Of a DNA stretch of 33,004 bases, positions 4,555 to 30,127 are shown piece after piece. Both the position numbers and the translations under genes were made by a program. The notes under the pieces are model-generated. The model did not search any database and had not been told where the DNA came from. It saw only the letters and a list, made by a program, of their open reading frames with translations. Position 1 is the stretch's first letter. Every line of letters begins with the position of its first letter. This stretch comes from a virus. The DNA lies in the IMG/VR virus record IMGVR_UViG_3300048023_000163, positions 1-33,004 of that record, one strand, 5' to 3'.

Positions 4555-4980
4555 ATGAAGCTTAAAAGAACAGCGGCAGACCACTGGTTCAGCAGGTGCG
4601 TAAGGCTACGCAATGACTTCAAGTGCCAAGGGTGTGGCTCACAGTACGAGTCAAACAGTAGTGGACTGCACTGCTCTCACTACTTCAGCAGGTCAAAGAA
4701 GGGTATCCGGTACGATGCCTTGAATGCCTTTGCCCACTGCTACGGTTGCCACCAGAAGTACGGCAGTAACCCTGATTACTTCGTGCGTCATTATATTGAC
4801 ACCTATGGCGAAGGTGCCTTGGAGTTAATTAGGGAAAAGGCAGAGGACATCAACCTCGGTAAGAGGATGAACAAGGAGCAGAAGCTAATCGCTAAACACT
4901 ATAAAACCGAAGCCGAACGTATGGAGAACGATCGAGCCTCGGGTGTAGCAGGGTGGCTAGAGTTTGTTAGCTGGGATTAA
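4555..4980 (+). CDS. NinG-like (Rap-type) zinc-binding recombination endonuclease
   Basis: The 141-residue protein has a zinc-finger pair CQGC (24-27), then LHCSHYFSR (38-46) and HCYGCHQKYG (61-70). It then reads NPDYFVRHYIDTYGEGALEL. This is the NinG/Rap layout: CxxC, a GHY/SHY-S motif, Cx2C-HxxxGN and a C-terminal helix containing YGxxxxExL. Lambda NinG is a structure-specific endonuclease that cleaves D-loops and branched recombination intermediates. The small protein at 4398 ends 1 bp before it, so they are co-transcribed. Its stop lies inside a bidirectional hairpin shared with the convergent gene. The family call is fairly secure. Confidence 0.8.
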   Translation: MKLKRTAADHWFSRCVRLRNDFKCQGCGSQYESNSSGLHCSHYFSRSKKGIRYDALNAFAHCYGCHQKYGSNPDYFVRHYIDTYGEGALELIREKAEDINLGKRMNKEQKLIAKHYKTEAERMENDRASGVAGWLEFVSWD

Positions 4981-7739
4981 AGAGCCGCCGCTCTTTCCTG
5001 CTCAATCCCTTCTTGCAATTCAACAGGTATGTCTTGAGCCGCGTATATAGCCTTCAAAGTTGATAGGGTCACAGTGCTTTTCAAAGCGTCCGTATAGAAG
5101 GTGCTGATGTCTTTAACGTAGTCTATGGCGCCTGCGCCTTTCTCTCTAACGTACTGCATCATTTCGGTTTTGGGAGGATTGGCAAGCCTTTCAACTACGT
5201 CAGGATCCTTTAGTATCTCGGCAGACTTTACGTAGAACTTTTCTCTTCCCTTCGTTACCGAGGCTTTAGCCACCAAGTTAATAGCCTTTCTTTCTGGGGA
5301 GAGAATTTGATTCCTGAATGTACCAAGGTACTCAGCGGTACTGACGCCAGTTACATCCTGCACTGTGTCCACAACTGGGGATGAACCCATAGAATCGAGA
5401 AGCGTTTTACTTACGTTCTCCATTAGATCTCTAAGACCCGCAAGCTTGTTAATGTTTTTCACATAGCCAGAACCGAAGATGTCGCTTACCGCCTCAACGT
5501 TGCCATTAACGTATTCTTGCATTGATCCTTTAGTGGTAAGGCCCTGAGACAAGAATTCCTGTCGCAAGCCCGACATAACGATTTCTTTTTCTTTTGGGCC
5601 TAGCTTATTTATCTCGCTTATATAGCGCTTTCTGTCGCCAGGGTTGGACTTTATCTTGTTAACTACGGTGTTTAGGTTGTTGTTCTCTATACTTTTAAAG
5701 AAGCTATTAGAAAGCTCTTTAGCCCTCTCGTTGTATGCTTCTTGGTGGCGAACCTCGGTGTTCCGTATGGTGCGAAGTCTTCCGGCAATATCTGCAAACT
5801 CTGCCTCCATGCCGAACTCGCGAATCATTCTCTGGTTTCTTCTAACAAACCTTCCAAGCTGATTTGGTTGAATGTTTCCATCTGGGCCTATGACCCCAGA
5901 CTTTTCTGCATTTAGTCGTATAGCATGACGCACTACAGGCATGCCTTCTGAGCCAACGAAGTTGATGTAGTCCATTGCTTTTTCGTAGTTCATCAAGTCT
6001 GTTGCGGCTTCGGCTGTAAATCTACGAGAGGTAAAGTCTTTCATACCTTCAGCTCGCATCGGCAGGCCAAGCTGTTCGTAATAGAACTTATCCGCGTTAG
6101 CAAGAGAGTTAACAAACTCTGGGTCTGTCGTCCTCATCTTTGCAAGCATATCGTTAACGACGCCCTTAGTTTTGTATAAGCGCTCTATTCTTTGGTCGAT
6201 TTCTGGGCTTCTTGCCCTATTAGAAAGGGTGCTGATCTCAGTGTTTACCGCTTTCTTTAAAGATATCACGTCAGTGCCGGTAGCCTTTGGTATTACCTCC
6301 TTCCCGTCAGCATCTCTAGGCATCCACCTAGCCTCAAGTTGTGAGCCAACTTTACTATTTGGGCCGAAGACATCTGCTAATCGCACATTTCTGAACTGAC
6401 TATAAACATCTTTAACAAGCTCTGGAGCAAGCGCGATCCTATTAGCAATCGCTTTCGTTGAGTCATAAAGCTTATCAGCCTCACCCCTGATTAAAGCCTC
6501 TCGTTTGTTAGATAGCCTTTGTGCCGCTTGGCCTAACGATATGATGTCGCCATCTTCATCTGGTGTTATCCGGGTGGACAGCTTAACCAGTGCCTTATCA
6601 ATGTTTTCTTTTTGCCTTTCAAACTTCTTGATAGAGGCAAGCTCTTGAGCCTTGAATGACTTCCGCGCAATACTTTCCATCTGCGCTCTTGCTACGCTGT
6701 AGTCTTCCGCCTCACCTGTCACCTTGCCTGCAAGGGTTTCAAATCTTTCGGAAAGCTTTTGAGCATCAGACACTAAGATCTCTTCCATTTCTTTTTGGAA
6801 GCCCTTGTTTGCTTGAGTCGTTTTTCTAACCCAATCCCTTACCACTGGATTGTCAGACATCGTTCCCACAATGCCGCCAATTTGCAGACCAGGTATTTCT
6901 TCTTTAAGGGTCGCTAAATTCTCAACAGCTCGAGCCACCTCTTCGGGTCTCGTTGTTTGAGCAATTCTATTAATCTCCGCTCTAACTTGGCTGTTAGCCA
7001 TTGCTTCGGATGCGGGGCCAAAAATATCCGTCTTCTCTCCAGTAATTTTTGTTTTGATATCTCCTGCTACCTTGCCCAACGTCATAATTGCTGGCGCAGT
7101 AACAACATTGGTAGTTGCACCAGCAAGACCGCCTGCTGTTATTGCGGCAAGTTCTTGAGCATATGGACTGGCCCCAGCCTCTGCGGCTAACTGAGAAGCA
7201 GTCATCCCCCCAAGGAGGCCAGCACCCGTGCTAGTTACTGCGGGGATTGCAGTTTTTAAGAACGGAACTACCTGCCGTTGAATGGCCCCCTCTGCAACTT
7301 TCAAGGGCGCTCTAACTCCAATGTAAGAAAGAGGGTCTCCGGCGGCGGCAAACATTTCCTGGGTTAAGGTTAATGGCGCATCAGCAGGTATCCCTGAAAA
7401 CTCTCTAGCTAACCTTTCTTCTCTTTGCATAGGCGTCTCTCGCTCTCTGCCAGAAAACGCAAGGTCGGCATCTCTTTTAAATTCCTCTGCACTCATAAGA
7501 AAAACATCAGGAACAAATTGAATCCCAAACCTAGCGAGGCCAAGCTGAACAAGATCGGCGTTTGTTATTTCATCATCTTTATTTGCAGGGCCAGAGGCAT
7601 CATGCTGGCTAGTTCGCTTTGCTTGTGACGCATTAAGGGCGGCATAGTTTGTTATTTGAAGGTCAGTCCAGCCTTCTGGATGCTCTATAGACACAACCTC
7701 GCCATTGTCTAGTTCTACCCTGCTAATCTTCTTTGTCAT
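4977..7739 (-). CDS. Large putative internal virion (ejection) protein, 920 aa
   Basis: This is the last and second-largest gene of the structural run. The N-terminus (VELDNGEVVSIEHPEGWTDL, ~8-27) resembles short N-terminal modules of phage ejection proteins. Residues ~160-225 form a Gly/Ala-rich hydrophobic stretch (AGLLGGMTASQLAAEAG, ITAGGLAGATT) that could insert into membranes. The rest, ~230-900, is almost entirely predicted helix with many Arg/Glu/Lys pairs. I see no transglycosylase motif (the lysozyme-like module of T7 gp16). Position after the tail genes, size and a long helical rod suggest an internal protein ejected with the DNA. Functional identity is an inference. The stop is shared with a convergent hairpin, and the start overlaps the stop of the preceding gene. 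Confidence 0.55.
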   Translation of the reverse strand: MTKKISRVELDNGEVVSIEHPEGWTDLQITNYAALNASQAKRTSQHDASGPANKDDEITNADLVQLGLARFGIQFVPDVFLMSAEEFKRDADLAFSGRERETPMQREERLAREFSGIPADAPLTLTQEMFAAAGDPLSYIGVRAPLKVAEGAIQRQVVPFLKTAIPAVTSTGAGLLGGMTASQLAAEAGASPYAQELAAITAGGLAGATTNVVTAPAIMTLGKVAGDIKTKITGEKTDIFGPASEAMANSQVRAEINRIAQTTRPEEVARAVENLATLKEEIPGLQIGGIVGTMSDNPVVRDWVRKTTQANKGFQKEMEEILVSDAQKLSERFETLAGKVTGEAEDYSVARAQMESIARKSFKAQELASIKKFERQKENIDKALVKLSTRITPDEDGDIISLGQAAQRLSNKREALIRGEADKLYDSTKAIANRIALAPELVKDVYSQFRNVRLADVFGPNSKVGSQLEARWMPRDADGKEVIPKATGTDVISLKKAVNTEISTLSNRARSPEIDQRIERLYKTKGVVNDMLAKMRTTDPEFVNSLANADKFYYEQLGLPMRAEGMKDFTSRRFTAEAATDLMNYEKAMDYINFVGSEGMPVVRHAIRLNAEKSGVIGPDGNIQPNQLGRFVRRNQRMIREFGMEAEFADIAGRLRTIRNTEVRHQEAYNERAKELSNSFFKSIENNNLNTVVNKIKSNPGDRKRYISEINKLGPKEKEIVMSGLRQEFLSQGLTTKGSMQEYVNGNVEAVSDIFGSGYVKNINKLAGLRDLMENVSKTLLDSMGSSPVVDTVQDVTGVSTAEYLGTFRNQILSPERKAINLVAKASVTKGREKFYVKSAEILKDPDVVERLANPPKTEMMQYVREKGAGAIDYVKDISTFYTDALKSTVTLSTLKAIYAAQDIPVELQEGIEQERAAAL
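4979..4996. terminator. Bidirectional terminator hairpin carrying both convergent stop codons
   Basis: AAAGAGC (4979-4985), loop CGCC, GCTCTTT (4990-4996) is a perfect 7-bp stem. It starts within the NinG-like stop (4978-4980) and holds the last codons of the 920-aa gene on the opposite strand. The stem ends in TTT in both directions, so it can stop transcription both ways, although the U-tracts are short. Confidence 0.55.
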
Positions 7740-8932
7740 TAGTCGATCACCCGTGCAGTGTTGCCGCCATAAACATCAATTATGTTTTGCAATGCCTTTT
7801 GTTCTTTATCAGATGGAGTTACTAGCATCATTCGTCTTGCGCTATTAATGATTCTATTTTTAGAGGCCGCCTCTAGCACATCAATAATTTGATTGTATTC
7901 AGCTCTTGTTTCTTTATCGAGACCGCCGACAAATACCTTAGTTGTAAACTTCTTAATCAAGTCAACAACCTCATCATCAGACCTAAACCTTCCAAGCTCT
8001 TGAACAGCTTTAACATCATTAGGCGCTAGGTTGGTAAGGAGTCTTTCCTTTAAAGATGTTAGACCAGCAACATCCGCCTCTGTTATTTGTTCAAGTGCTC
8101 GATATTTTTCAATATCAAACAAGTCTGTTCTTGCTGTTGCTACGGCAGGGTCTACCTCTAAAAGCTTAAATGAATCTGCCAGACCTAGCGGCTGTCTATC
8201 CTCAAGCATTTGCCCAAGCTCTTTTCCAAGGGATGCGTTTTCAAGCTCAATGAGAGCGTAGTTTCTTGCCGCTCTTATACCGTCATCTGTTGAAAGATCG
8301 GCCTCAAAACCTGAGTCTTTAAGCATTTGGCTTATTGATTTTGTTGCGTCTGCTCCACCATCAGAAGGAGCGCGGCCTATTACATTTTCAAAAGCAGGAA
8401 CTGACGGATTGGCACTGTTCTTGTCGTAAGCAAATCTAACTAAATTTCTTATTCCCGACTTTGGATCAACTATTTCTTTTGTTTCATAGGCATAATCAGG
8501 AGGAGTCTGTCGTCTGACAAAGTCAGCGGTATTGCCTGTTCTTTCGTAATTAGCAATGCTTTCAACGGTAAAGTTTTCTAATAACTTTTCTTTTTGATCC
8601 ACGGTTAGGCGAGGCTTTGGCCTAAACCCTTGCCCTGCTTGAATAGCTTGAGCCGCAACAGCCGGGGACATACCTAGCTCTGCCGCACCACCTAATGTGT
8701 CCTTTAGCATTTCAGGATTAAGCGTACCTGAAGCCCCCAAAGAAAGTAGGTTGGCTTGATACTGACGTTGCTTGGCAAGTTTTTCTTCTTCTTGTTTTTT
8801 AAGTTCTGCCTGACGACGCTCTTCATCTAGCCGTCCACGCAACCCGCCCAGTTCTTTTGCCGCAGTAAACAAGCCTTGCTGGTATGAAGGCTGGGCCATT
8901 GATTGTAAAAATGCTTGCGAAAACTTAGCCAT
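7739..8932 (-). CDS. Putative internal virion protein, 397 aa
   Basis: The protein begins MAKFSQAFLQSMAQPSYQQG and then has a charged coiled-coil (LRGRLDEERRQAELKKQEEE, ~30-50). A Gly/Ala-rich helical zone follows (~65-100), then mixed helical segments to the end. No enzyme motif is visible. It lies between two other structural proteins in a tightly spaced run (10 bp before, 1-bp junction after), like T7 gp14-gp15-gp16. I infer a core or ejection component. Confidence 0.5.
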   Translation of the reverse strand: MAKFSQAFLQSMAQPSYQQGLFTAAKELGGLRGRLDEERRQAELKKQEEEKLAKQRQYQANLLSLGASGTLNPEMLKDTLGGAAELGMSPAVAAQAIQAGQGFRPKPRLTVDQKEKLLENFTVESIANYERTGNTADFVRRQTPPDYAYETKEIVDPKSGIRNLVRFAYDKNSANPSVPAFENVIGRAPSDGGADATKSISQMLKDSGFEADLSTDDGIRAARNYALIELENASLGKELGQMLEDRQPLGLADSFKLLEVDPAVATARTDLFDIEKYRALEQITEADVAGLTSLKERLLTNLAPNDVKAVQELGRFRSDDEVVDLIKKFTTKVFVGGLDKETRAEYNQIIDVLEAASKNRIINSARRMMLVTPSDKEQKALQNIIDVYGGNTARVID

Positions 8933-8942
8933 GATTGACTCC

Positions 8943-10517
8943 TTAAATATTTAAAAGGTCTCTGATGCCGCCACCTATACCACTAAGACCGCCAGCAATC
9001 GTACTAAACAAACCGCCTAAGCTTGAGCTACCACTACCGCCGGGAGCCGCTGAAGCCGCACGTTGTTGGTTAATTAACCCTGATATCACGTTACTGCCAA
9101 CACCGCCAATCAAGTTTGCTCTAGCCTGCTCTGCTAACAACTGAGCCTCGATGCCTGACAGCGCGGTCTCACCAAAGAGTCCGGTGCCAAACTGTTGTGC
9201 TTGCTGTGCAAGCTCTTGCTGAATTAACCCAGGCTGGAGTGCTGACACCAACTGTTGCTGTGGCAAATAACCTGCACCTAAGAATTGTTGTCCTAGTGTT
9301 GCTTGCTGTGCTTGCTCTGCTTGAGCCTGTTGCATAGCAGTCAACATAGAACGATCACGAGCCTCACGCTCCGCTGCACTTAACGCTAAAAGTTCTGGCG
9401 TAGCACCACCATATGCCGCTGAGGACGTCCCTAATCGCCCCTGAGCCGCAAGCCTTTCTTCTAAGGCAAGACGCTGACGCTCTTCTTCAGGGCGTTGTGC
9501 GGCACGCATACGCTCAAATACAGCTTGCTCTCGGCTTGTAGTAGGTTGTACCGCCTGACCAAAAAACCCGCCAGCCCCACTAAGCAACTGTTGTTGTAGT
9601 GCTTGCTCTTGTGGAGATAGCTCCATGCCAATTTCAAGACCGCCAGCAGGCTGTGCAAGTTGAGTAGGCTGTGCCGTTTGAGGAAATGAAATTGTAGGTG
9701 ATATGCCTGCAAAAAAGTTTCTTAGAGATTCGCTAGATTGAATCGGCGCTTGCCTTAAGGGGGCTTCTTTGTAACTCATATTGTCAGGAAGTACGCCAGT
9801 TACCGGCTGTGTGCTCATCCTGTTTCCGCCTTTATCTGGGCCAAAAACCTGAGAAGGCATTGGTGCGCCAGTTACTGGCTGTGTTCCCATTCTATTGCCG
9901 CCTTTATCTGGGCCAAAAACTTGAGAAGGCATTGGCTCACCAACATCTGGCCCTGTTGAAGCAGGCATAGGAAACAATCCGTAACCGCCTGTTGGATCTT
10001 GAAGAAACGGAAGAAACGATTGTTGCCCCAACATTCGACCGGTAGGTTGCATAGGCTGACCACCCATACGCGCCGTAAAGCTTGCACCTGTAGGAGTTGT
10101 AACTGTAAACGGCCTGAACTGCGACTCTGCTTGACCACGTTCAGCAATGCCCATTGCTTCTTGTCTGGCAACATCGCCAATATTACTAAGGCGATCATAA
10201 GCCTCTTTAGTTAACAAGCCGCCAGCCAATCCCATTAGCGCGTTAGGTGAGCCAAGCACTTGCTGTCCAGCACCTAAAAGGCCACCAAAGATGTCGCCTA
10301 TGCCACCAGCAATAGCGCCAAACCCAGAAGTGCCGCCGCCCGTTGCTGTAGCTAAAGCAGGATCAATATTAGCTTGCCCCATGCCAGGAATATTTAAGCC
10401 ACCACCAGTAGTAAATCCTCCACCAGAGCCAACAGTAGAGGCGCCAGGTAAATTTAAGCCACCACCAGTAGTGAAGCCACCACCTGTTCCAGTGTATCCG
10501 GGAATATTTAAACTCAT
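8943..10517 (-). CDS. Gly/Gln-rich putative internal virion protein, 524 aa
   Basis: The N-terminal ~45 residues contain two copies of a GGGFTTGGGLN unit separated by LPGASTVGSG. Residues ~195-245 hold a 24-residue duplication (MPSQVFGPDKGGNRM). Residues ~295-460 are Gln/Ala-rich helix (AQQAQQATLGQQFLGAGY), and a Gly-rich hydrophobic C-terminus follows (SSLGGLFSTIAGGLSGIGGG). Gln/Ala-rich helices with Gly-rich hydrophobic ends are common in podovirus ejection proteins that form a channel through the cell wall. It precedes two other candidate ejection genes. The role is inferred from composition and order; there is no detectable enzymatic motif. Its ATG overlaps the stop of the preceding nozzle-like gene by 4 bp. 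Confidence 0.5.
   Translation of the reverse strand: MSLNIPGYTGTGGGFTTGGGLNLPGASTVGSGGGFTTGGGLNIPGMGQANIDPALATATGGGTSGFGAIAGGIGDIFGGLLGAGQQVLGSPNALMGLAGGLLTKEAYDRLSNIGDVARQEAMGIAERGQAESQFRPFTVTTPTGASFTARMGGQPMQPTGRMLGQQSFLPFLQDPTGGYGLFPMPASTGPDVGEPMPSQVFGPDKGGNRMGTQPVTGAPMPSQVFGPDKGGNRMSTQPVTGVLPDNMSYKEAPLRQAPIQSSESLRNFFAGISPTISFPQTAQPTQLAQPAGGLEIGMELSPQEQALQQQLLSGAGGFFGQAVQPTTSREQAVFERMRAAQRPEEERQRLALEERLAAQGRLGTSSAAYGGATPELLALSAAEREARDRSMLTAMQQAQAEQAQQATLGQQFLGAGYLPQQQLVSALQPGLIQQELAQQAQQFGTGLFGETALSGIEAQLLAEQARANLIGGVGSNVISGLINQQRAASAAPGGSGSSSLGGLFSTIAGGLSGIGGGIRDLLNI
9796..9939 (-). repeat. Two tandem 72-bp units within the Gly/Gln-rich virion gene
   Basis: Two imperfect 72-bp copies encode the 24-residue unit APMPSQVFGPDKGGNRM plus xTQPVTG. 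The copies differ by a few mostly silent changes (for example CCGGCTG versus CTGGCTG). The duplication keeps frame, so it is tolerated or selected in the protein. Confidence 0.8.
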
Positions 10518-12037
10518 AACAATTTACCTATCAAAGCCATTACGTTGATTTCTTGTAGTGATAAGGGTGATCCGTCTATATCGGCTTCGAGACCTACCTG
10601 CACACTGGTTCCATATCCTGTGGTGTTTAAGCTACGCTGACTTGTTAGCTCGCCACCTGTAAATTCGACTGTCGTGTATTCGCTTTCACCGTAGTAACCC
10701 GTGATTTGAGTACCTACCGTAAACTCTGCTGTAGCAAACGTTGTATCAAAGTCATAAGCCCACTTAAGAAATACAGTCGCACTGTTTGCGCCAACCAGTG
10801 TGGGCTTTAGTTTTTTAAGAATCTTAACTCTAGAGCTATCGCCAAACGTTAAGCTTGGGCTGTAATACTTAAAGCGGTAAGCCTCGTCATTGTCTGCATA
10901 GCCCGTGTACTCGCTAATGCCTTGGTTTGTACCAATGTACAACTTGCCATTTTCTAGTCGAGCAAAGGACGTAAAGCTGGTTCCGGGCCATCGAGTCACA
11001 CGGTACGAGCCATTTTCCACCGTGCCACGCACGTCAAAACAAAACGTCGTGTTCTGCTCTGTAAACGCCAGTAAATAAAAACCTTCTTCTGGGCTATATA
11101 CCGATCTAAAAAACTCTGTTTCTGCCTGCAACGAGGCAATAATATCCTTCGTTATGTTTCCTGACAGACTGCTAATTGGCATAGATTTTTCTTGGATTGT
11201 CCTGCCAAAACTTTTGAGACCCGTATGTGATAGGAACAGCACATCTGTACCTGTGTACTGCACGGTGTCTCTATCGACACACCCAACACCTGCTACGGTG
11301 TCTGCTACCGACATAGTAGCCGGAGCTTCTGCACCCTGATACGCAATGATGCTGTGCTTACCAAAGATGATAAGAAGGCCGTTATGTGCGGCTAACGCAA
11401 CAATCTCGTCATAGCCATCAGGCCATACCTTTGAGATATCAATGTTGCCGCTAGTACCGCCAGACCAATCGTGGCCGATTAAGAGATCACTCCAGTAAAT
11501 AGTAGATTTGTTAGAGCTAAAGTCTGCTGTCCACAATCGACCATAAGCCGCTAAGACTTCGTTGCCGTACATGGCACTGGCTACGCCTGCGGCACCTGAC
11601 ACAGTGCTTAATTGAATTACTGAGCCACCAGCATTGTCATAGACCAAAGGCTCATAGCCGCGTTGGAAGAAATAGATCTTGTCGTTGAAGTTAACCATCT
11701 TCCAGTTATTAGCAGTGATTGTGTAACTGCCGGGAGTCTCGTCAACTAATGTAGTTGTTCCACTAATAATCTTGTTGTTGCCAACAGAAAATATCTTAGT
11801 GTTGCCACCGTCATCCCTGAATTCTTTAATTGCACGAATAGACTCCGTGCCAAGTACAGTCTTTGTAGTCGTAATAACATTGTGGCCCTTACGTGCGGCA
11901 ATACGTCCTCGCTTGTCGATTACAGCGTTGTCTGCAATCTCAGCAAAAGACGGATCTTGCGCTAACGGCGAATCCTCGGTGTTAACACCCTTAAAGGCCG
12001 GAGCTACAAGATTAATACTTTGCAGTTGTTGAGCCAT
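10514..12037 (-). CDS. Nozzle-like virion protein (tail tubular protein B-like), 507 aa
   Basis: The frame extends to 12085, but the ATG at 12037 lies 1 nt after the stop of the adaptor gene and starts the conserved part: MAQQLQSINLVAPAFKGVNT. A beta-rich body with repeated short strands follows (KIFSVGNNKIISGTT, VLFLSHTGLKSFGR, LYIGTNQGISEYTG), suggesting a beta-propeller. T7 gp12 starts with a similar INLKGGISQQPD..., VNGWSSETEGLQKRPP pattern. Here it is INLVAPAFKGVNT...DNAVIDKRGRIAARKG. The order adaptor, nozzle, internal proteins is partly kept, with the adaptor directly upstream. It would form the tail tip through which DNA passes. The identity is from pattern and context, not a full match. 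Confidence 0.55.
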   Translation of the reverse strand: MAQQLQSINLVAPAFKGVNTEDSPLAQDPSFAEIADNAVIDKRGRIAARKGHNVITTTKTVLGTESIRAIKEFRDDGGNTKIFSVGNNKIISGTTTLVDETPGSYTITANNWKMVNFNDKIYFFQRGYEPLVYDNAGGSVIQLSTVSGAAGVASAMYGNEVLAAYGRLWTADFSSNKSTIYWSDLLIGHDWSGGTSGNIDISKVWPDGYDEIVALAAHNGLLIIFGKHSIIAYQGAEAPATMSVADTVAGVGCVDRDTVQYTGTDVLFLSHTGLKSFGRTIQEKSMPISSLSGNITKDIIASLQAETEFFRSVYSPEEGFYLLAFTEQNTTFCFDVRGTVENGSYRVTRWPGTSFTSFARLENGKLYIGTNQGISEYTGYADNDEAYRFKYYSPSLTFGDSSRVKILKKLKPTLVGANSATVFLKWAYDFDTTFATAEFTVGTQITGYYGESEYTTVEFTGGELTSQRSLNTTGYGTSVQVGLEADIDGSPLSLQEINVMALIGKLL

Positions 12038-12038
12038 A

Positions 12039-12686
12039 TTAGACCGCCCTAAATACCATTTCTTCTGGATGTTTAGCCGCATCAATTGCTACGGCATCTG
12101 ACAGGTACTGGTTAGCTATCGTAAAGTATTCGGCTGTAGACGTACCGCCTGTTTCTCCGCGTTCACGGGCAAGCAGTGCTATTGCCAAATGAATAACAGG
12201 CGCTGAAGGAATAAGTAGTTTGTCAGTGTTAGTCGTTAGATCGCCTTGCCGCTTAACGACATCAAACCGCAGGCTGTACACGCCATCCGGTGTAGGGCCA
12301 ATCAAGAGTTGAGTATCGCCGTTGCCGTCTAGCCCGTTGTACGTAAAGTATTTTGGGGCGCCTTCTACTGCGTTAGCAATGTATAGCGCATCGTTAAACC
12401 AATCTTTAGTTTGGTATTCCATAAAGCAGTTCTGAGTGTCATTCAGTACTGACATTACTTTTACATTGTCACCGGAGTTAGTTAGTGAGTAGGTATTGTC
12501 CGATGCCGCAGTAGTTACCGTGATAGTTTCACGTAACGCAGACCAATCAGCCGCTTGACTAACTAATGTTTTTGCATCGTTAATAAAGTCACCAACCATT
12601 TTGGCATAGGTAGTGTTAGTAACAGCAGTCACTTCTTCTTCTCGAAGACGACGCAGTACAGCGTTCATTAGGTTTAGATATGTCAT
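12039..12686 (-). CDS. Head-tail adaptor (T7 gp11/tail tubular protein A-like)
   Basis: The 215-residue protein starts MTYLNLMNAVLRRLREEEVTAV, then FINDAKTLVSQAADWSALRE. This is the classic two-helix opening of podovirus gatekeeper/adaptor proteins: an N-terminal helix, a helix with INxA and WDW/ADW, then a beta domain (YSLTNSGDNVKVMSVL, FTYNGLDGNGDTQLLIGPTP). The C-terminal helices begin VIHLAIALLARERGE. It would bind below the portal ring and carry the nozzle. It is immediately followed by the nozzle-like gene. The start overlaps the stop of the giant upstream gene by 4 bp. The family fit is good by pattern. Confidence 0.7.
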   Translation of the reverse strand: MTYLNLMNAVLRRLREEEVTAVTNTTYAKMVGDFINDAKTLVSQAADWSALRETITVTTAASDNTYSLTNSGDNVKVMSVLNDTQNCFMEYQTKDWFNDALYIANAVEGAPKYFTYNGLDGNGDTQLLIGPTPDGVYSLRFDVVKRQGDLTTNTDKLLIPSAPVIHLAIALLARERGETGGTSTAEYFTIANQYLSDAVAIDAAKHPEEMVFRAV

Positions 12687-15600
12687 ACGCTTCTAGCGCC
12701 TCCAGTAAACATGCCGATTCTTAATGGGTCAGCTAACTTACGCCGCGTCAAACCACGTTGAAATTTCTCAAACTCAACAGGCTGTATAGGCGTAGCCGCC
12801 GCTATTTGCCCAGGCATCAATGCTTGTTGTGCCGCAAGACCCATAAGCCCAGCGCCTAAGCCTTGCCCAAGGCCGGCAATGCCCGTCCCAAGACCCTCAA
12901 GACCCTGACCAATGCCACTAACGTTCGATGCCAAGCCACCAATTTGTGTGCCTAGATCTCCAATCTGTCCGCCAATTTGGCCAAACTGTTCTTCAGTACT
13001 TTGCTGAAACGCTTGCTGTGCTTCTGCTTGGCTAATCTGACCAGCTTGAAGGGCGCTAATATCAACATTTACGTCAGAAAAAAGATCAGTAACAGTGCCG
13101 CCAAAGTTTTCAAACTGCTCGCGAGTGGCTTCATCAAGGTCATTAATATCGCCTTGAACATTAAGAACAGCTTGCTGTAGTTCTTGCCGCTCTTCTTGTG
13201 CCGCTGTTTGTCCTGCCGCAACATCTTGTGCCGTTGCAAAACCTGCACCACTTAACGCGGCATCAATGTCTTCTGGTGTTGCAAACCCAGCGTTTGTTAC
13301 AGCAGTAGTGATGTCTTCTGGAGTAGCAAATCCTGCTAATGCTAACGCGCTTCCTAACTGTTCAGGCGTTACATAACCAGCATTAGACAAAGCGGTTGCT
13401 ACATCGTCGGGAGTAGTAAATCCAGCATTTGATAAGGCAGTTACAATGTCTGTTGGAGTAGCAAACCCGGCATTCGCTAGTGCTGTACCTACGTCTTCGG
13501 GTGTAGTGAATCCTGCATTAGCAATAGCGGTGCCTATGTCTTCTGGTGTTGCGAACCCAGCGCTGGCTAAAGCAGTTCCTATGTCTTCTGGAGTAGCAAA
13601 ACCAGCCAAAGCCAATGCGCTTCCCAATTGCTCTGGTGTCACATAACCGGCATTAGAAAGAGCGGTAGCAACATCTTCTGGAGTCGTAAAGCCTGCGCTT
13701 GAAATTGCATTAACAACATCTTCCGGTGTAGCAAAATCTGACGCCGCCAAAGCACTACCTAGTTGTTCGGGTGTTACATATCCTGCGTTGGACAAAGCAG
13801 TAGCAACATCTTCCGGTGTAGTAAATCCAGCATTTGTTAGTGCGGTAGTAATATCTTCCGGGGTGGCAAATCCGGCTTGAGCAAGAGCAGTTCCTATGTC
13901 TTCTGGTGTTGCATAGCCAGCCTGAGCCACTGCATTAGCAACATCTTCCGGTGTAGCAAACGGCGTTTCTGACAAGATGTTTTCAACAATCCCTGTTACT
14001 TCTGCTGAGGTAGTGGCTTCTGGGAACTGAATGTTGCTAATTGCACTGTTTACAATGTCACTAACATTATCGGCAGTAATTCCTTGGGGAAATTCAATAT
14101 TTCCAATAGCACTATTAACTATTTCCAAAACCTGTTCTGATGTCATTCCTTCTGGGAATTCAATGCCGCTAATCGCAGTATCAACTATTGTTTGAACTTG
14201 ATCGGCTGAAGTTCCGGCGGGTATGTTGCCAATAGCTTCGTTAACAATGCCTTCAATTTCGCCTGCCGTAGCAAACCCAGCGCCTTCCAAGGCTTGGTTA
14301 ATATCTTCCGGTGTAGCAAACCCTGCACCAGCTATAGCATTTTCAATGTCTGCCGGAGTAGCAAAGCCTGATGCCGCCAAAGCATTGCCTAATTGTTCAG
14401 GTGTTACATATCCTGCATTAGCTAATGCACTTGCAACATCTTCTGGTGTAGTAAAGCCTGCGCTTGTTACTGCACGAGTAATGTCTTCTGGCGTAGCAAA
14501 CCCGGCTTGAGCAAGAGCAGTGCCAATATCTGCTGGTGTTGCATAGCCTGCGGCGGCTACAGCATCAGCAACTTCTCCGGGCGTAGCAAAAGGTGTGTTT
14601 TCTAATACACTTTCTACAATACCGCGTATTGCCTCTGGATCAGCATCTCTTCCGGGCTCACCTCTTTCGCCTTGTTCACCCCTTTCACCTTGTTCTCCAC
14701 GCTCTCCTTGCTCACCTTGTTGTCCGTCTACTCCATCGCGACCATCTGTTCCATCCCTTCCCGGCGAACCATCACGACCATCTACGCCATCTTGACCGTC
14801 AGCACCATCTATGCCGTCAACGCCGTCTCGACCGGGAGTTCCATCTACTCCATCTCTGCCGTCTACCCCATCACGACCGGGAGTGCCATCCACTCCATCT
14901 ACGCCATCTCTTCCAGGGGAGCCATCAACGCCATCTCTACCGTCCACTCCATCTCTACCATCTTGACCGGGATCACCTCTTGGCCCTTGAACTGGTTCAG
15001 GAGGGAAATACTCGCCAAACATACCCGTTGTAATAGGCGCTTCTTCTTGCGGTGTTGGAGCCGGAGCTGGAGCCGGTTGAGGAGCCGGTTGAGGAGCCGG
15101 TTGGGGTGCAGGTTGGGGTGCCGGAGTTGGTGCCGGAGTTGGTGCCGGAGTTGGTGCCGGAGTTGGTGCCGGAGTAAAACTAGGATCAGGTTGAGTTGTA
15201 GGATCAGGCGATGGGGATGCAGTGCCAGCGTCTCCCGGCGTTTGGTCTTCCTGGTCTACAGGTTCTACAGGTTCTACAGGTTCTACAGGTTCTGGCTCTG
15301 GTGGCGGATCAGGCGTTTCTTCTGGCTCTTGCTCGTACTCAAACGGATCTACTTCTACATCTGTTTCTAATGGAGTGTCTGGAGCTTCTTGTACGTCAAC
15401 TAAAATGTCTCGAATTTCTGAAGAAACCTCACTTGTATCTGTTGGATCTAAAAGAGGATTGTTTTCTGAAGAAGTAGGTGGCGGTATAAATTCTTGATTT
15501 CCAACAAACTCAAGGTTTAACAAGGAATCCTGATCAATGCTTGAATGAATCCCCGATGTTACATTGCTAGATCCCGAAATTAATATGTAAGCACCCGCTG

Positions 15601-17431
15601 AATCTTGAGCCAAAACCAAGTCATTAGCTTTTAAAAGATTACTTAATGCTTGAAGGCTTTCGGTGGTTCCGTCTGCTGAAAGTGTATCGCCTATTAAAAT
15701 TGCTAAAGCATCTTCAGGCAAGCCATGAGCAGACACGCCAGTGGCTGTAGTCCATGCGTTCTTGTCATTAACAAACTGCTCAAGAATTTGCTCAGGTGTA
15801 GCATCTTGGCTAACGCCTACGGGAAATCCAGCATCGTTGTAGTAAACGCCATTAATTAGCTCGTCGCCTTCAAATGGGTTTGTTATCTGTGCCATAGGCT
15901 CAGGTTGTGCAGTTGTATCAGCAGTTAAGTCAGCCGTAGTGTCTGCTAGTTCTGAGTCTGTATCGTCAACTGAGTTAGCCATAAAGTCTTCAACAGAAGG
16001 GCCGCTTGGATCAGGAGATACCGCATAAGCATCTTGATAAATAGCCTGAAGGTTGCCTGACAAGTCTCTTAGTTGATTAGCAATAGCTTCGTTTTGTTGG
16101 TCAGCAATTGCAGTGTTAAGAGTATCATTCATGTTCGAGGTAATTTCCTCAAACGCCTCTTGGTCTAAGCCATCTCTAAGTTCGGCCTGCCTTCTAGCAA
16201 GCTCTTCCATTGCTTCAGGAGAAGCTTCTGTATTTTCTGCTATAAACTGCTGGATTGGCTCTAGGATAAAATCTGCAAGCTCTCTAGCACCAGCAAACAA
16301 ACCAGACGAAACAATTTGATCCATGTCTAGTTCACCATCAAATACCGCTTGGCGAATAGCTGTTTGACCCATTGCGTTTAAAACATTATCTACTTCTTCA
16401 ATGCCTGTTATTTCTGAAAGGTCAATGCCACCTAAAGCACTTTCAATTTGAGGGCCAATAATTTGACTTACGGCTTGACCTAAACCAGCAGTAGCCGCAG
16501 TTTGAAGTAGTTGGTCAGGATCAATAGAGCCAGTAGTAATAGCTTGCGTTATTGCATTGCTAACAACGGCAGAGCCAATACCGCCTAAAGCAGGAGCCAA
16601 TGCACCACCAGACATAATTCCGATAGCAGTAGTAATGCCCATCTTTACAAAGTCAGCAAGTCCGGCGTGATCTTCGTTTACAGTCTTTACATACGCAGAG
16701 CCATTCCATGCAAACTTGTCGCCAGAGTTACTATAAACAACAGGGTTAACACCATATTTCTGTAGCAATGCTTGATTAGCTTCAGAGTTAATCCAGTTGT
16801 TGTAAGCACCTTGTTGAGTGCTAGTTTGTTGCCTGCGTAAGTTCTCTAGGTTTTGGCCGGGGTCACTAGGGTCAATAGTAAGGTCAGCATCACCTTCAAG
16901 AATCATCTCTTGATCTTCGCTAAACCCAGTGTCGGCTTCTGACCAGTTACCTACATCGTAATCACCAGACTGAATTAGTTGCTCACGTTCAGTCATGTAC
17001 GCAAGGTAGTTATCAAACGTACCAAATACTTCAGGCAGTCTGTTTACCTTATCGCTTTTAAAGTAATTACGTAGCTCACTAACTGTTAACTGCTGTACTT
17101 CGCCTTCTTGTCCGTACAAATAGTTTTGTGCCGCATTACCACGCTCTTTGCCTTCAACAAATGTAAAAGTCATTTCTGCAGGTGTTTCTGGAGCAGGAGC
17201 AGAAGGAGGAGTTGTTACAACTGCAGTAGGATCTTCTACTGAACCTGTTACTGATGGTAAAGGCGTAACGTCTGGAGCTGAAGCTGGAGGATTTTCGCCA
17301 GTCAGCATTCCTTGGTTTTGGACTGGCTCAGACGTAATGCGTAAACCTGCCGCCACTAAGTCAGGATTTCTACGTATAAAATCAGTGGCTTGACCAATGT
17401 TTGCAAACTCTCGTGTGCCTATGTAATACAT
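12683..17431 (-). CDS. Giant modular virion protein with collagen and 15-residue FATPEDI repeats, 1582 aa
   Basis: Domains by residue. 1-40: MYYIGTREFANIGQATDFIR, a possible anchoring module. ~85-740: a long helical and mixed region with an Ala/Gly-rich membrane-like zone around 270-310. ~700-800: VEPVEPVEP and PAPTPAP/QPAPQPAP repeats, a stiff extended stalk. 816-929: 38 perfect Gly-X-Y triplets. 948-1067: eight 15-residue units of the form FATPEDIxxALxxAG. 1070-1157: four 20-24-residue units (EFPxGxTxxxVxxIVxSAI). 1158-1409: seventeen more 15-residue units. ~1410-1530: a coiled coil and a Gly-rich helix. A basic C-terminus ends GLTRRKLADPLRIGMFTGGA. Its neighbours are holin-like genes upstream and the adaptor downstream. 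A trimeric fibre, whisker or appendage is likely. I know of no family with this combination. Confidence 0.75.
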   Translation of the reverse strand: MYYIGTREFANIGQATDFIRRNPDLVAAGLRITSEPVQNQGMLTGENPPASAPDVTPLPSVTGSVEDPTAVVTTPPSAPAPETPAEMTFTFVEGKERGNAAQNYLYGQEGEVQQLTVSELRNYFKSDKVNRLPEVFGTFDNYLAYMTEREQLIQSGDYDVGNWSEADTGFSEDQEMILEGDADLTIDPSDPGQNLENLRRQQTSTQQGAYNNWINSEANQALLQKYGVNPVVYSNSGDKFAWNGSAYVKTVNEDHAGLADFVKMGITTAIGIMSGGALAPALGGIGSAVVSNAITQAITTGSIDPDQLLQTAATAGLGQAVSQIIGPQIESALGGIDLSEITGIEEVDNVLNAMGQTAIRQAVFDGELDMDQIVSSGLFAGARELADFILEPIQQFIAENTEASPEAMEELARRQAELRDGLDQEAFEEITSNMNDTLNTAIADQQNEAIANQLRDLSGNLQAIYQDAYAVSPDPSGPSVEDFMANSVDDTDSELADTTADLTADTTAQPEPMAQITNPFEGDELINGVYYNDAGFPVGVSQDATPEQILEQFVNDKNAWTTATGVSAHGLPEDALAILIGDTLSADGTTESLQALSNLLKANDLVLAQDSAGAYILISGSSNVTSGIHSSIDQDSLLNLEFVGNQEFIPPPTSSENNPLLDPTDTSEVSSEIRDILVDVQEAPDTPLETDVEVDPFEYEQEPEETPDPPPEPEPVEPVEPVEPVDQEDQTPGDAGTASPSPDPTTQPDPSFTPAPTPAPTPAPTPAPTPAPQPAPQPAPQPAPQPAPAPAPTPQEEAPITTGMFGEYFPPEPVQGPRGDPGQDGRDGVDGRDGVDGSPGRDGVDGVDGTPGRDGVDGRDGVDGTPGRDGVDGIDGADGQDGVDGRDGSPGRDGTDGRDGVDGQQGEQGERGEQGERGEQGERGEPGRDADPEAIRGIVESVLENTPFATPGEVADAVAAAGYATPADIGTALAQAGFATPEDITRAVTSAGFTTPEDVASALANAGYVTPEQLGNALAASGFATPADIENAIAGAGFATPEDINQALEGAGFATAGEIEGIVNEAIGNIPAGTSADQVQTIVDTAISGIEFPEGMTSEQVLEIVNSAIGNIEFPQGITADNVSDIVNSAISNIQFPEATTSAEVTGIVENILSETPFATPEDVANAVAQAGYATPEDIGTALAQAGFATPEDITTALTNAGFTTPEDVATALSNAGYVTPEQLGSALAASDFATPEDVVNAISSAGFTTPEDVATALSNAGYVTPEQLGSALALAGFATPEDIGTALASAGFATPEDIGTAIANAGFTTPEDVGTALANAGFATPTDIVTALSNAGFTTPDDVATALSNAGYVTPEQLGSALALAGFATPEDITTAVTNAGFATPEDIDAALSGAGFATAQDVAAGQTAAQEERQELQQAVLNVQGDINDLDEATREQFENFGGTVTDLFSDVNVDISALQAGQISQAEAQQAFQQSTEEQFGQIGGQIGDLGTQIGGLASNVSGIGQGLEGLGTGIAGLGQGLGAGLMGLAAQQALMPGQIAAATPIQPVEFEKFQRGLTRRKLADPLRIGMFTGGARSV
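13205..13960 (-). repeat. Second FATPEDI block: 17 units of 45 bp
   Basis: Seventeen 15-residue units encode [FY][AVT]TPE[DQ][IVL]xxALxxAG. Units differ in codon use, so this is an old or drifting expansion, not a recent perfect slippage. Sub-families recur in order (FTTPEDVATALSNAG then YVTPEQLGSALAxAG three times), which suggests duplication in multi-unit segments. Confidence 0.85.
14231..14590 (-). repeat. First FATPEDI block: 8 units of 45 bp
   Basis: Eight 15-residue units follow directly after the collagen segment. The order PGEV, ADIG, EDIT, EDVA, EQLG resembles the start of the second block, so the two blocks probably arose by duplication. They are separated by four EFPxG units (14-kb region 13961-14225). 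Confidence 0.8.
14645..14986 (-). repeat. Collagen-like repeat: 38 Gly-X-Y triplets
   Basis: In-frame 9-bp units encode GRD, GVD, GTP, GER and GEQ triplets with no interruption. Charge is mostly RD/ED and few Pro are in X, so stability would come from charge pairs, as in bacterial and phage collagen-like proteins. Trimerisation of the whole protein is implied. Confidence 0.9.
15040..15178 (-). repeat. Pro/Ala repeat stalk (PAPTPAP / QPAPQPAP)
   Basis: Tandem 12-bp units encode PAPT and PAPQ just before the collagen segment, at residues about 752-797. Such Pro-Ala runs form extended, stiff spacers. A VEP repeat lies slightly upstream, around 15255-15290. Confidence 0.85.
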
Positions 17432-19577: not shown

Positions 19578-21749
19578 TTATACAAAATAAGTAATTGTTG
19601 CGAACAAATCAGCAGATCCTGAGGTAAAATCTTGCACCTTTATCTGAACATCTGCCGAATTATCTACGGTCTGTCGTAGAGTTAAGTAAGACGAATTTGA
19701 TGTTGAAGAACATACAATACCGCAACAATTTGCGTCCAAGTCAGCCCTATCTAAACGTAACGAACCTTGAGACTGCCCCGTAGCACCGCTTCCTGCTACA
19801 AACGGAAGACCACGAATAAAAATATTATTAGCGCCTGTCATCCCAGTTGTGTCTATGTCTTCGATTTTTATAACAACAACTACTTGTCTACCTATCTTGG
19901 TGTAAAAACCTTCTGCGGTTGTAGCTGTTCCTGTGTTTCCACCGGAAGACGCATCAGCAATAACAGGAGTAAACGTCCCTTCTTCGTAGTCATCTAGCGT
20001 GTTTGCCGCCGCATAAGTGCCGACAGCGGTGCCTAGTGTTATGCCGTTGGGGACGATTAGGTACCCGCTAGAGTTGATCCGCATGCGTTCTGTAGCTGTA
20101 GAACTTCCGTCCCAATGAGCAAACTGCATAGCTTGACCATCAGGTACAGAAAAATCACCAGTGCCACCATCAGCTAAAAAAGAAGGCAATGCATCTGAGC
20201 TTACTGAATGTACCTTTGCAGTAGGAGAATCCGTACCGATACCTACTTTGCCTGAATTTGTAATACGCATCCACTCATTTTCAATAACACGGTCATTGTC
20301 ATTTAGCTTTTCGCCAAAGGCCAAAGCATCGGCTTGGTCTACGGTTATAAAATGAGTATTAACATCAGCAATTAAATCTACATCAAATGCTATAAACTTA
20401 TCGTTACTGCCTGCCGCACCTGCCAATATTAATTGAGTAGCGTCTTGCGTAACATGAACGCCTGCTTGTGGGGCGGTATTTCCAATACCTAACGACTCCG
20501 CAGAAGCATCCCAATAAAACTTATCATCCGTACCAGTGTCCTCACGGAACGAAATATCGCCCGTAGCATGGTCTATAGCTATGCGTGTTTGAGATGTGGT
20601 TCCGACATCGTCGGTGCTTTGGATCTGAAGTGTACCGCCCGTGTTTCTAAACCTAGTGTTTACATCGGTTGTGTCAGACTCAAAAAGTTCAATACGTGGA
20701 GTTGCTCCCCCAATTACGGCTTTAGTGTTTAAAGAAACATCATCAGCAGTCAGTGTGCCACTTACGTCGACGCCTGTGGAGCTGGTGGCTAGTCTTTCTG
20801 CGGCGGCATAATATAGCGTTGTTGCGTTTGGAGCTGATTTAAAAATTATATTATCTGATACATCTCTAAATTGAATGTTTGAGCCGTTTGATTTAAGAAT
20901 CAAGTTTCCTGAACCTGCGTCCTCAACATAACTGCTAGTGCCATCGTGATAAATCTGTAGGTCAGAGCCAGCACCAAAGACAGCCTTAGAGTTGTCTGCA
21001 AACTTCAGGTCTTCATCACTAGCCAGCCATTGAAGTTTTGGAGTCGTGCCAGTGTCTTCGTAGAATTTAATGTCGCCGTTATCAGCAAAAGAAGCACGTT
21101 TAATAGTTGAAACACCATCAGAACTTGTTGCAATGTTTACGCTTCTAGCCGCACTTGTTCTAGGCTGTATTACTAAATGGCCTGCCAACGAAAATATATC
21201 TGAACCACCAGATCCTGTACGATATATTGATGGCTCTGTAGTTGTAGCAAAAGCATTAATACCTTGTCCTGCAATGCCAAGTTTTCCACCAGATAAATCG
21301 CCAATAGTTGCATCACCTTTAACAGTCAAACCATCACTTGTAACTGTGCCGGTTACGTCGATGTTACCTGTGCCAGTAATATTATTACCGTTAAGATCAA
21401 GAGTGCCGCCTAACTGTGGCGTAGAGTCTTCTACAACTTCATTAGTTGCCGCAACAGTAGTATCGACGTACGCTTTTACAGACTGCTGTGTAGGAACTAA
21501 TGTTGCACTGTCGGATGCCATGTTGTCTTCATCGACAAAAGCAGTGACGTTGATAGATCCATCAGAAATAGTTTCAAAGGTCAGGGTTCCGGTAAACGTA
21601 GGCCCTGCTATGTCACTCTTAGTTGCAATAGCAGTAGAGATTGCATCGAACTCTGTCTCGAATTCAGCGCCTTTAATAATCTTGCCGCTGTCCCCAGAGG
21701 GTAACGAATCTTTAGCCGCAAAATCTGTGGTCTTAGTGTAGTTAGACAT
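19578..21749 (-). CDS. Tail fibre / receptor-binding protein, 723 aa
   Basis: The N-terminus (MSNYTKTTDFAAKDSLPSGD, GKIIKGAEFETEFDAISTAI) is the typical anchoring module of marine podovirus tail fibres. It is followed by a beta-repeat shaft (GGTLDLNGNNITGTGNIDVT, TLTADDVSLNTKAVIGGATP, several SxDGVxTIKRA/FxED-TG steps). Repeats with G-T-L-x-N and FREDTGTDDKFYWDAS are characteristic of trimeric fibres. The C-terminal ~110 residues (DDYEEGTFTPVIADASSG) start with the common (L)DDYEEGTFTP motif of phage fibre and spike heads and end in a beta domain that probably binds the receptor. The preceding gene downstream of the promoter is the capsid protein, separated by a strong terminator. Confidence 0.85.
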   Translation of the reverse strand: MSNYTKTTDFAAKDSLPSGDSGKIIKGAEFETEFDAISTAIATKSDIAGPTFTGTLTFETISDGSINVTAFVDEDNMASDSATLVPTQQSVKAYVDTTVAATNEVVEDSTPQLGGTLDLNGNNITGTGNIDVTGTVTSDGLTVKGDATIGDLSGGKLGIAGQGINAFATTTEPSIYRTGSGGSDIFSLAGHLVIQPRTSAARSVNIATSSDGVSTIKRASFADNGDIKFYEDTGTTPKLQWLASDEDLKFADNSKAVFGAGSDLQIYHDGTSSYVEDAGSGNLILKSNGSNIQFRDVSDNIIFKSAPNATTLYYAAAERLATSSTGVDVSGTLTADDVSLNTKAVIGGATPRIELFESDTTDVNTRFRNTGGTLQIQSTDDVGTTSQTRIAIDHATGDISFREDTGTDDKFYWDASAESLGIGNTAPQAGVHVTQDATQLILAGAAGSNDKFIAFDVDLIADVNTHFITVDQADALAFGEKLNDNDRVIENEWMRITNSGKVGIGTDSPTAKVHSVSSDALPSFLADGGTGDFSVPDGQAMQFAHWDGSSTATERMRINSSGYLIVPNGITLGTAVGTYAAANTLDDYEEGTFTPVIADASSGGNTGTATTAEGFYTKIGRQVVVVIKIEDIDTTGMTGANNIFIRGLPFVAGSGATGQSQGSLRLDRADLDANCCGIVCSSTSNSSYLTLRQTVDNSADVQIKVQDFTSGSADLFATITYFV

Positions 21750-30060: not shown

Positions 30061-30088
30061 ACCCATAACCCATAACCCATAAACCATA
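30061..30088 (+). repeat. Four 7-bp repeats (ACCCATA / AACCATA)
   Basis: ACCCATA occurs three times in tandem (30061-30081), followed by AACCATA (30082-30088) and a C-run. It is telomere-like in look only. It may be a binding site or a slippage product in the control region. Confidence 0.75.
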
Positions 30089-30127
30089 ACCCCCCAATTC
30101 CTAACCGATCAGCTCCAAACAAAAACC

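Follow-up and report, generated by a model that had tools for sequence, protein, structure and literature searches.

How does a phage come to encode a protein of 1582 residues in which collagen triplets stand beside 25 copies of a 15-residue unit, and what might such a protein do? The question is raised by the gene at 12683-17431 of the window, that is, the whole stretch of 33,004 nucleotides analysed here (IMG/VR record IMGVR_UViG_3300048023_000163, positions 1 to 33,004). We favour, with about an even chance, the answer that a marine phage with a short tail carries the protein on its virion as an elongated appendage, rod-shaped over most of its length, and that this is most likely a tail fibre or whisker attached at the adaptor or neck.

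Gene and module organisation

The open reading frame is real, starts with ATG, belongs to a family present in more than 100 loci and lies on the minus strand, as do all the features of the protein given below; the strand was absent from the first-pass annotation. The Pro-Ala stalk, the uninterrupted collagen, the 8 + 17 repeat units, the coiled coil and the Gly-rich basic end which that annotation had described were all found again. At the N-terminus, an optional small beta-beta-alpha domain (aa 1-40, 17312-17431; pLDDT about 90), missing from some relatives, precedes a GMLT peptide (aa 41-44, 17300-17311, with its GM[LF] part at 17303-17311) and a second ordered domain (aa 85-255, 16667-17179; pLDDT mostly 80-95). 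Foldseek comparison of the N-terminal domain models with the PDB gave nothing significant, hence no fibre-docking fold was seen. There follow a hydrophobic Gly/Ala-rich segment predicted as helical, mostly with low confidence (aa 256-345, 16397-16666), a cassette domain that is exchanged among relatives (aa 523-645, 15497-15865) and a Pro/Ala-rich stalk (aa 746-815, 14987-15196) that carries a middle GMF peptide (aa 803-805, 15017-15025) immediately N-terminal of the collagen. The latter consists of 38 Gly-X-Y triplets (aa 816-929, 14645-14986) and scores 63 bits with Pfam Collagen (PF01391), whose cut-off is 27.2.

The 15-residue units keep exact register and start at aa 948 and at aa 1158, with eight of them in array 1 (aa 948-1067, 14231-14590) and 17 in array 2 (aa 1158-1412, 13196-13960). 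The final unit of each array is degenerate (FATAGEI... and FATAQDV...), has no proline and merges into the next module, which leaves 23 canonical units of the 25. Between the arrays stand EFPxG-type helix units of 22 residues each, which end in IPAG, EFPEG, EFPQG and QFPEA (aa 1075-1157, 13961-14209). Array 2 is followed by a long-helix, coiled-coil-like segment (aa 1413-1500, 12932-13195; predicted helices at model residues 349-375 and 382-400) and by a Gly-rich hydrophobic repeat with a basic C-terminal tail (aa 1501-1582, 12686-12931), in which a last GMF peptide is found (aa 1573-1575, 12707-12715). The window matched a degenerate DNA pattern that describes two units in tandem 11 times, versus 0 times in 100 shuffles.

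The 15-residue unit and its predicted structure

Across 167 distinct units from 47 arrays, conservation is 97% or more at T3, P4, A10 and G15, 87% at A14 (otherwise serine) and 79% at D6, while position 7 (I/V/L) and position 11 (L/I/V) together make one hydrophobic stripe. A Thr N-cap, a first turn of Pro-Glu-Asp, and a Gly followed by Phe/Tyr as C-cap are the textbook marks of a capped helix. AlphaFold2, run on the monomer only with an alignment of 35 sequences, predicted exactly one helix of 10-11 residues per unit of the 17-unit array (pLDDT about 87-90) and a helix of 13-14 residues in each of the 22-residue units. The model thus bears out the earlier suggestion that each unit is a short capped helix, and where a repeat without order would have told against that suggestion, a helix was predicted in every unit. 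The array is predicted to be all-helical rather than beta-structured; this distinguishes it from adenovirus-like triple beta-spiral fibres, which also have 15-residue repeats, but beta ones.

With one helix per repeat, each chain of the appendage might also fold by itself into an alpha-solenoid that serves as a spacer or a binding surface. The monomer model is locally confident (pTM 0.56), and the best Foldseek matches of the array were alpha-solenoids and designed helical repeats. No match in the PDB or among viral proteins (BFVD) was significant, however, and TM-scores were low; moreover, the helices of a solenoid commonly pack on both sides, and the unit helix has a single hydrophobic stripe; the array also lies between collagen and a coiled coil, which would keep three chains together. 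We therefore regard the solenoid as possible, if on balance unlikely. Collagen and the helical coil are both usually in-register trimer folds, with the chains parallel in comparable phage proteins (PMC3368898), and it is the single stripe of each unit, together with the place of the units between collagen and coil, that leads us to favour a three-chain rod; the modelled structure being a monomer, the trimeric array is proposed by analogy.

The first-pass annotation had also said that it knew of no named family with the repeat. This stands insofar as no credible match was found, but two NCBIfam models formally exceed their curated cut-offs on the protein and so in form give the family match that was to count against it: c-di-GMP_motif (NF053729; 60.5 bits, cut-off 38) and the NusA repeat (TIGR01954; 57.6 bits, cut-off 48.15). 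We give almost no credence to an array of c-di-GMP-binding (MshEN) or NusA-type repeats. Both scores are sums of many short sub-threshold stretches, no single one of which passes alone; the MshEN motif begins with an essential RLG (PMC5013675), which is absent from the protein, and the unit has 15 residues, not 24. Because of the summed weak stretches and the missing RLG signature, we set both matches aside. The weak Pfam, PHROG and NCBIfam matches on the arrays as a whole (UBA, 3HCDH, HHH, NusA, c-di-GMP) were likewise rejected as summed short stretches. Repeat-rich proteins can thus be misnamed by automatic annotation, as NF053729 and TIGR01954 on 12683-17431 illustrate. The unit profile had no convincing match among PDB sequences, and the repeat was not found in a literature search beyond whose reach most subscription journals lay.

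Distribution and gene neighbourhood

No relative was found among named phages by tblastn against INPHARED (50,697 phage records), and when portal proteins are compared the closest named phages, which include Puniceispirillum phage HMO-2011, Roseobacter CRP phages and Pelagibacter HTVC phages among others, share only about 22-26% identity. A tandem-unit scan of 84,980 GTDB species genomes gave 7 stretches and no real array: most lie in unrelated open reading frames, L219 and L222 have no visible open frame carrying the pattern, and L224 (a lake MAG contig, L224:1-327) holds a different 14-15-residue repeat (RLATPEDVIKAPAQV), unrelated by pattern. In IMG/VR, 60 stretches carry the FATPEDI pattern and 55 the tandem pattern, and homology to either end of the protein retrieved 99 distinct sequences. 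A relative lies immediately upstream of the gene of an SU10-type tail adaptor in more than 100 contigs of uncultured marine viruses. One contig of 58,241 bases, IMGVR_UViG_3300046167_000364 (L115, L134, also L005), has two stretches encoding array proteins and a near-identical portal region; it possibly represents two joined phages or a true duplicate.

In the window, the end of the gene overlaps by 4 bases the gene of the SU10-type tail adaptor (12039-12686, minus strand; PF24175, 7.7e-15), which is adjoined by a tail protein gene at the place of the nozzle (10514-12043, minus strand). In 109 distinct loci the gene adjoins a relative of this adaptor on the upstream side, and 102 of the 109 open reading frames taken there end in the C-terminal peptide of the family, with or without 15-residue units. 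The PHROGs matches of the collagen part are mostly to tail and tail-fibre families. From this gene context we infer the label of virion protein that the first-pass annotation had used. As the SU10 adaptor carries the long tail fibres, which are encoded beside it (PMC9509320), a position adjoining such an adaptor favours a tail or neck appendage.

The C-terminal part of the protein co-varies with the adaptor and the tail protein (Mantel-type r about 0.4, against about 0.1 for the N-terminal parts). Two neighbouring genes beyond the adaptor, of 524 aa and 397 aa, reach about the same value (0.37-0.38), so that linkage explains this correlation and a special coupling to the adaptor was rejected. 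Three further features of the window may be mentioned: a 72-base tandem duplication (90%) at 9794-9935, inside the 524-aa Gly/Gln-rich gene 3' of the tail genes; a 7-base repeat, ACCCATA, in 4.6 copies at 30061-30092, between the leftward structural and the rightward genes, which is a possible control element; and the gene at 19578-21749, likely that of the true tail fibre, with the first about 100 aa mostly 78-92% conserved among relatives and the remainder highly variable.

A gene adjoining the adaptor and tail genes might also encode a central needle or plug, a single long trimer that would close the nozzle and pierce the outer membrane. The family ranges from 904 to 1730 aa and, to our knowledge, all phage needles are far smaller than this; no beta-prism tip was recognised. 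SU10 does have a trimeric coiled-coil needle (PMC9509320), and no other needle gene was recognised, but in SU10 the needle gene follows that of the nozzle, and we hold this explanation to be highly improbable.

Conserved ends and exchangeable modules

Of 48 complete relatives, 41 have the motif GM[LF] within the first 150 aa and 45 within the final 25 residues (102 of 109 when partial ones are counted); in total, 121 occurrences compare with about 12 expected from composition. Among the main window proteins, which were scanned for it, only the 1582-residue protein has the motif, at aa 41, 803 and 1573. We infer that these are docking or recognition peptides.

Between such ends, the middle of the protein varies among relatives: collagen of about 10 to 56 triplets, coiled coil, and units of 22 or of 15 residues are combined in different ways, and these modules substitute for each other, so that the genes are strongly mosaic. 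Identity in the cassette at aa 523-645 falls to 17-28% in some relatives with the flanking modules still at 59-96%, as determined pairwise by segment (automatic clustering had included the flanks); to judge from the sequences, other versions, distant or unrelated, have taken the place of the cassette there. Sliding DNA comparison with related contigs mapped the mosaic of the window gene. The end of the collagen and array 1 are nearest to L145/L093 (94-100%), whereas aa about 1060-1170, with the 22-residue units, are nearest to L112/L085 (90-97%). Array 2 has, in order, units of L108/L118 type, a three-unit block nearest to L114/L140 (aa 1278-1322, 13466-13600), a part nearest to L118/L137 and then L141/L108 types. 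This pattern indicates that the 25 units, a record, come from recombination between two array-bearing lineages. Thus, the earlier claim that the units arose by duplication in multi-unit blocks holds for the blocks themselves, but not for the two arrays together, which were joined by two-lineage recombination and not made by local duplication alone. A chimeric assembly is a possible source of the mosaic, but most segments differ in sequence from the contigs to which they are nearest.

High mosaicism is also found in ejected phage proteins. The short GM[LF] peptide common to both ends and the hydrophobic Gly/Ala-rich segments would suit such a protein as well, which would be stored in the head, with GM[LF] as packaging signals, and form a channel through the envelope after ejection. 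Nevertheless, three other large genes that follow the tail proteins (8943-10517, 7739-8932 and 4977-7739) occupy the place where, to judge from T7 and SU10, ejection proteins are usually encoded; a rigid collagen some 33 nm long would be unusual within a head, and no transglycosylase or other ejection-protein domain was found with Pfam, PHROGs or NCBIfam. This makes an internal head protein improbable in our view.

Unit number and three-unit steps

Unit identity within arrays peaks at lags of 3 and 6, and strains differ by whole triads, in line with the multi-unit blocks that had been proposed. The length variation predicted between strains was also found: in one clade, near-identical strains carry 8, 14 or 17 units. 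Of the units of L118, numbers 1-6 and 10-17 correspond to the 14 units of L108, and numbers 1-3 and 13-17 to the 8 units of L085. Orthologous units mostly share 87-100% DNA identity, against at most 82% between triads inside one array, which makes assembly collapse an unlikely source of these differences in whole three-unit (45-aa) blocks. Triads within the window array differ at pS 0.53-0.81 versus pN 0.07-0.125; synonymous differences near saturation with few nonsynonymous ones indicate old duplications and purifying selection on the protein. Arrays of other clades have 5, 6, 7, 9 or 15 units, counts with no clear period of three, and a strict structural period was therefore not accepted. 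On sequence grounds, we read the triad as a unit of recombination and not yet as a structural one.

Proposed role

In the virion appendage that we favour, three parallel chains would probably associate, and a collagen triple helix of about 33 nm would lead to a segmented helical rod. Each 15-residue unit in the rod would form a helix of three turns, capped at its N-terminus by Thr-Pro-Glu-Asp and at its C-terminus by Gly, with Phe/Tyr next, and bearing an I/V-A-L-A stripe; the EFPxG units of 22 residues would be a longer form of the same helix-plus-turn, and the coiled coil and the Gly-rich tail would close the rod. Collagen, the two kinds of helix unit and the coiled coil might thereby be spacers that can stand in for one another, and when units recombine in register, three-unit blocks would be gained or lost, so that the length evolves with the ends kept. 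Trimerisation, location on the virion, a receptor role, the spacer role and GM[LF] docking are all putative at this stage. Several observations speak against a fibre: the small, conserved C-terminus does not resemble a tip that binds a receptor; another gene, more typical of a fibre, is present at 19578-21749; the hydrophobic Gly/Ala segments at aa 256-345 and 1501-1550 would fit a protein that is membrane-active or ejected as well; and the N-terminal domains match no solved structure. A still more specific proposal, a new fibre architecture in which a parallel trimeric rod of stacked three-turn helices, each spanning 15 residues with its turn, changes length in recombinational three-unit steps and is looped, fibritin-like, with both ends tethered by GM[LF], is in our opinion unlikely as a whole.

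If the rod is true, abundant uncultured marine short-tailed phages build appendages from interchangeable spacer modules, one of which is an unnamed, regular helix repeat whose count shifts in clean steps among near-identical strains. It would then be testable how phages tune fibre length and how modular rods recombine with the register kept. Moreover, the repeat is a simple and strongly conserved building block for protein design.

Comparison with known systems

A modular phage fibre that contains collagen is a kind already known, and no described family is matched by the repeat of 15 residues. EPclA, a collagen protein from E. coli phage, forms a trimer that combines collagen and coiled coil (PMC3368898); like EPclA-type fibres, the window protein is a large phage protein with collagen beside alpha-helical coiled coil, a trimer by analogy, but its 15- and 22-residue helix units are not described for EPclA. 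The PfN and PfC end domains of EPclA were not found, and no Pfam, PHROG or NCBIfam match went beyond collagen and the summed weak repeats. Another collagen-like phage virion protein, SPP1 gp12, differs in having only 64 aa, a place on the capsid surface and no helix repeats (PMC6316719).

Like the long tail fibre gp12/gp13 of SU10, which sits on adaptor gp11, the protein has a PF24175-family adaptor as gene neighbour; its gene lies upstream of the adaptor, in contrast to those of SU10, which are downstream (PMC9509320). No sequence or fold match to the SU10 fibre was found: the N-terminal region, compared with the PDB by sequence profile and by fold as a candidate adaptor-docking part, had no match there. 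T4 fibritin (wac) is a segmented trimeric coiled coil that forms the neck whiskers and attaches to the particle by both ends (PMC3004832). Neither sequence homology to fibritin nor a foldon was found with Pfam or NCBIfam. The likeness to fibritin lies in the helical segments, predicted here, that are separated by turns and in the conservation of both ends, whereas the window protein has regular 15-residue Thr-Pro-capped segments, contains collagen and is several times longer (PMC3004832).
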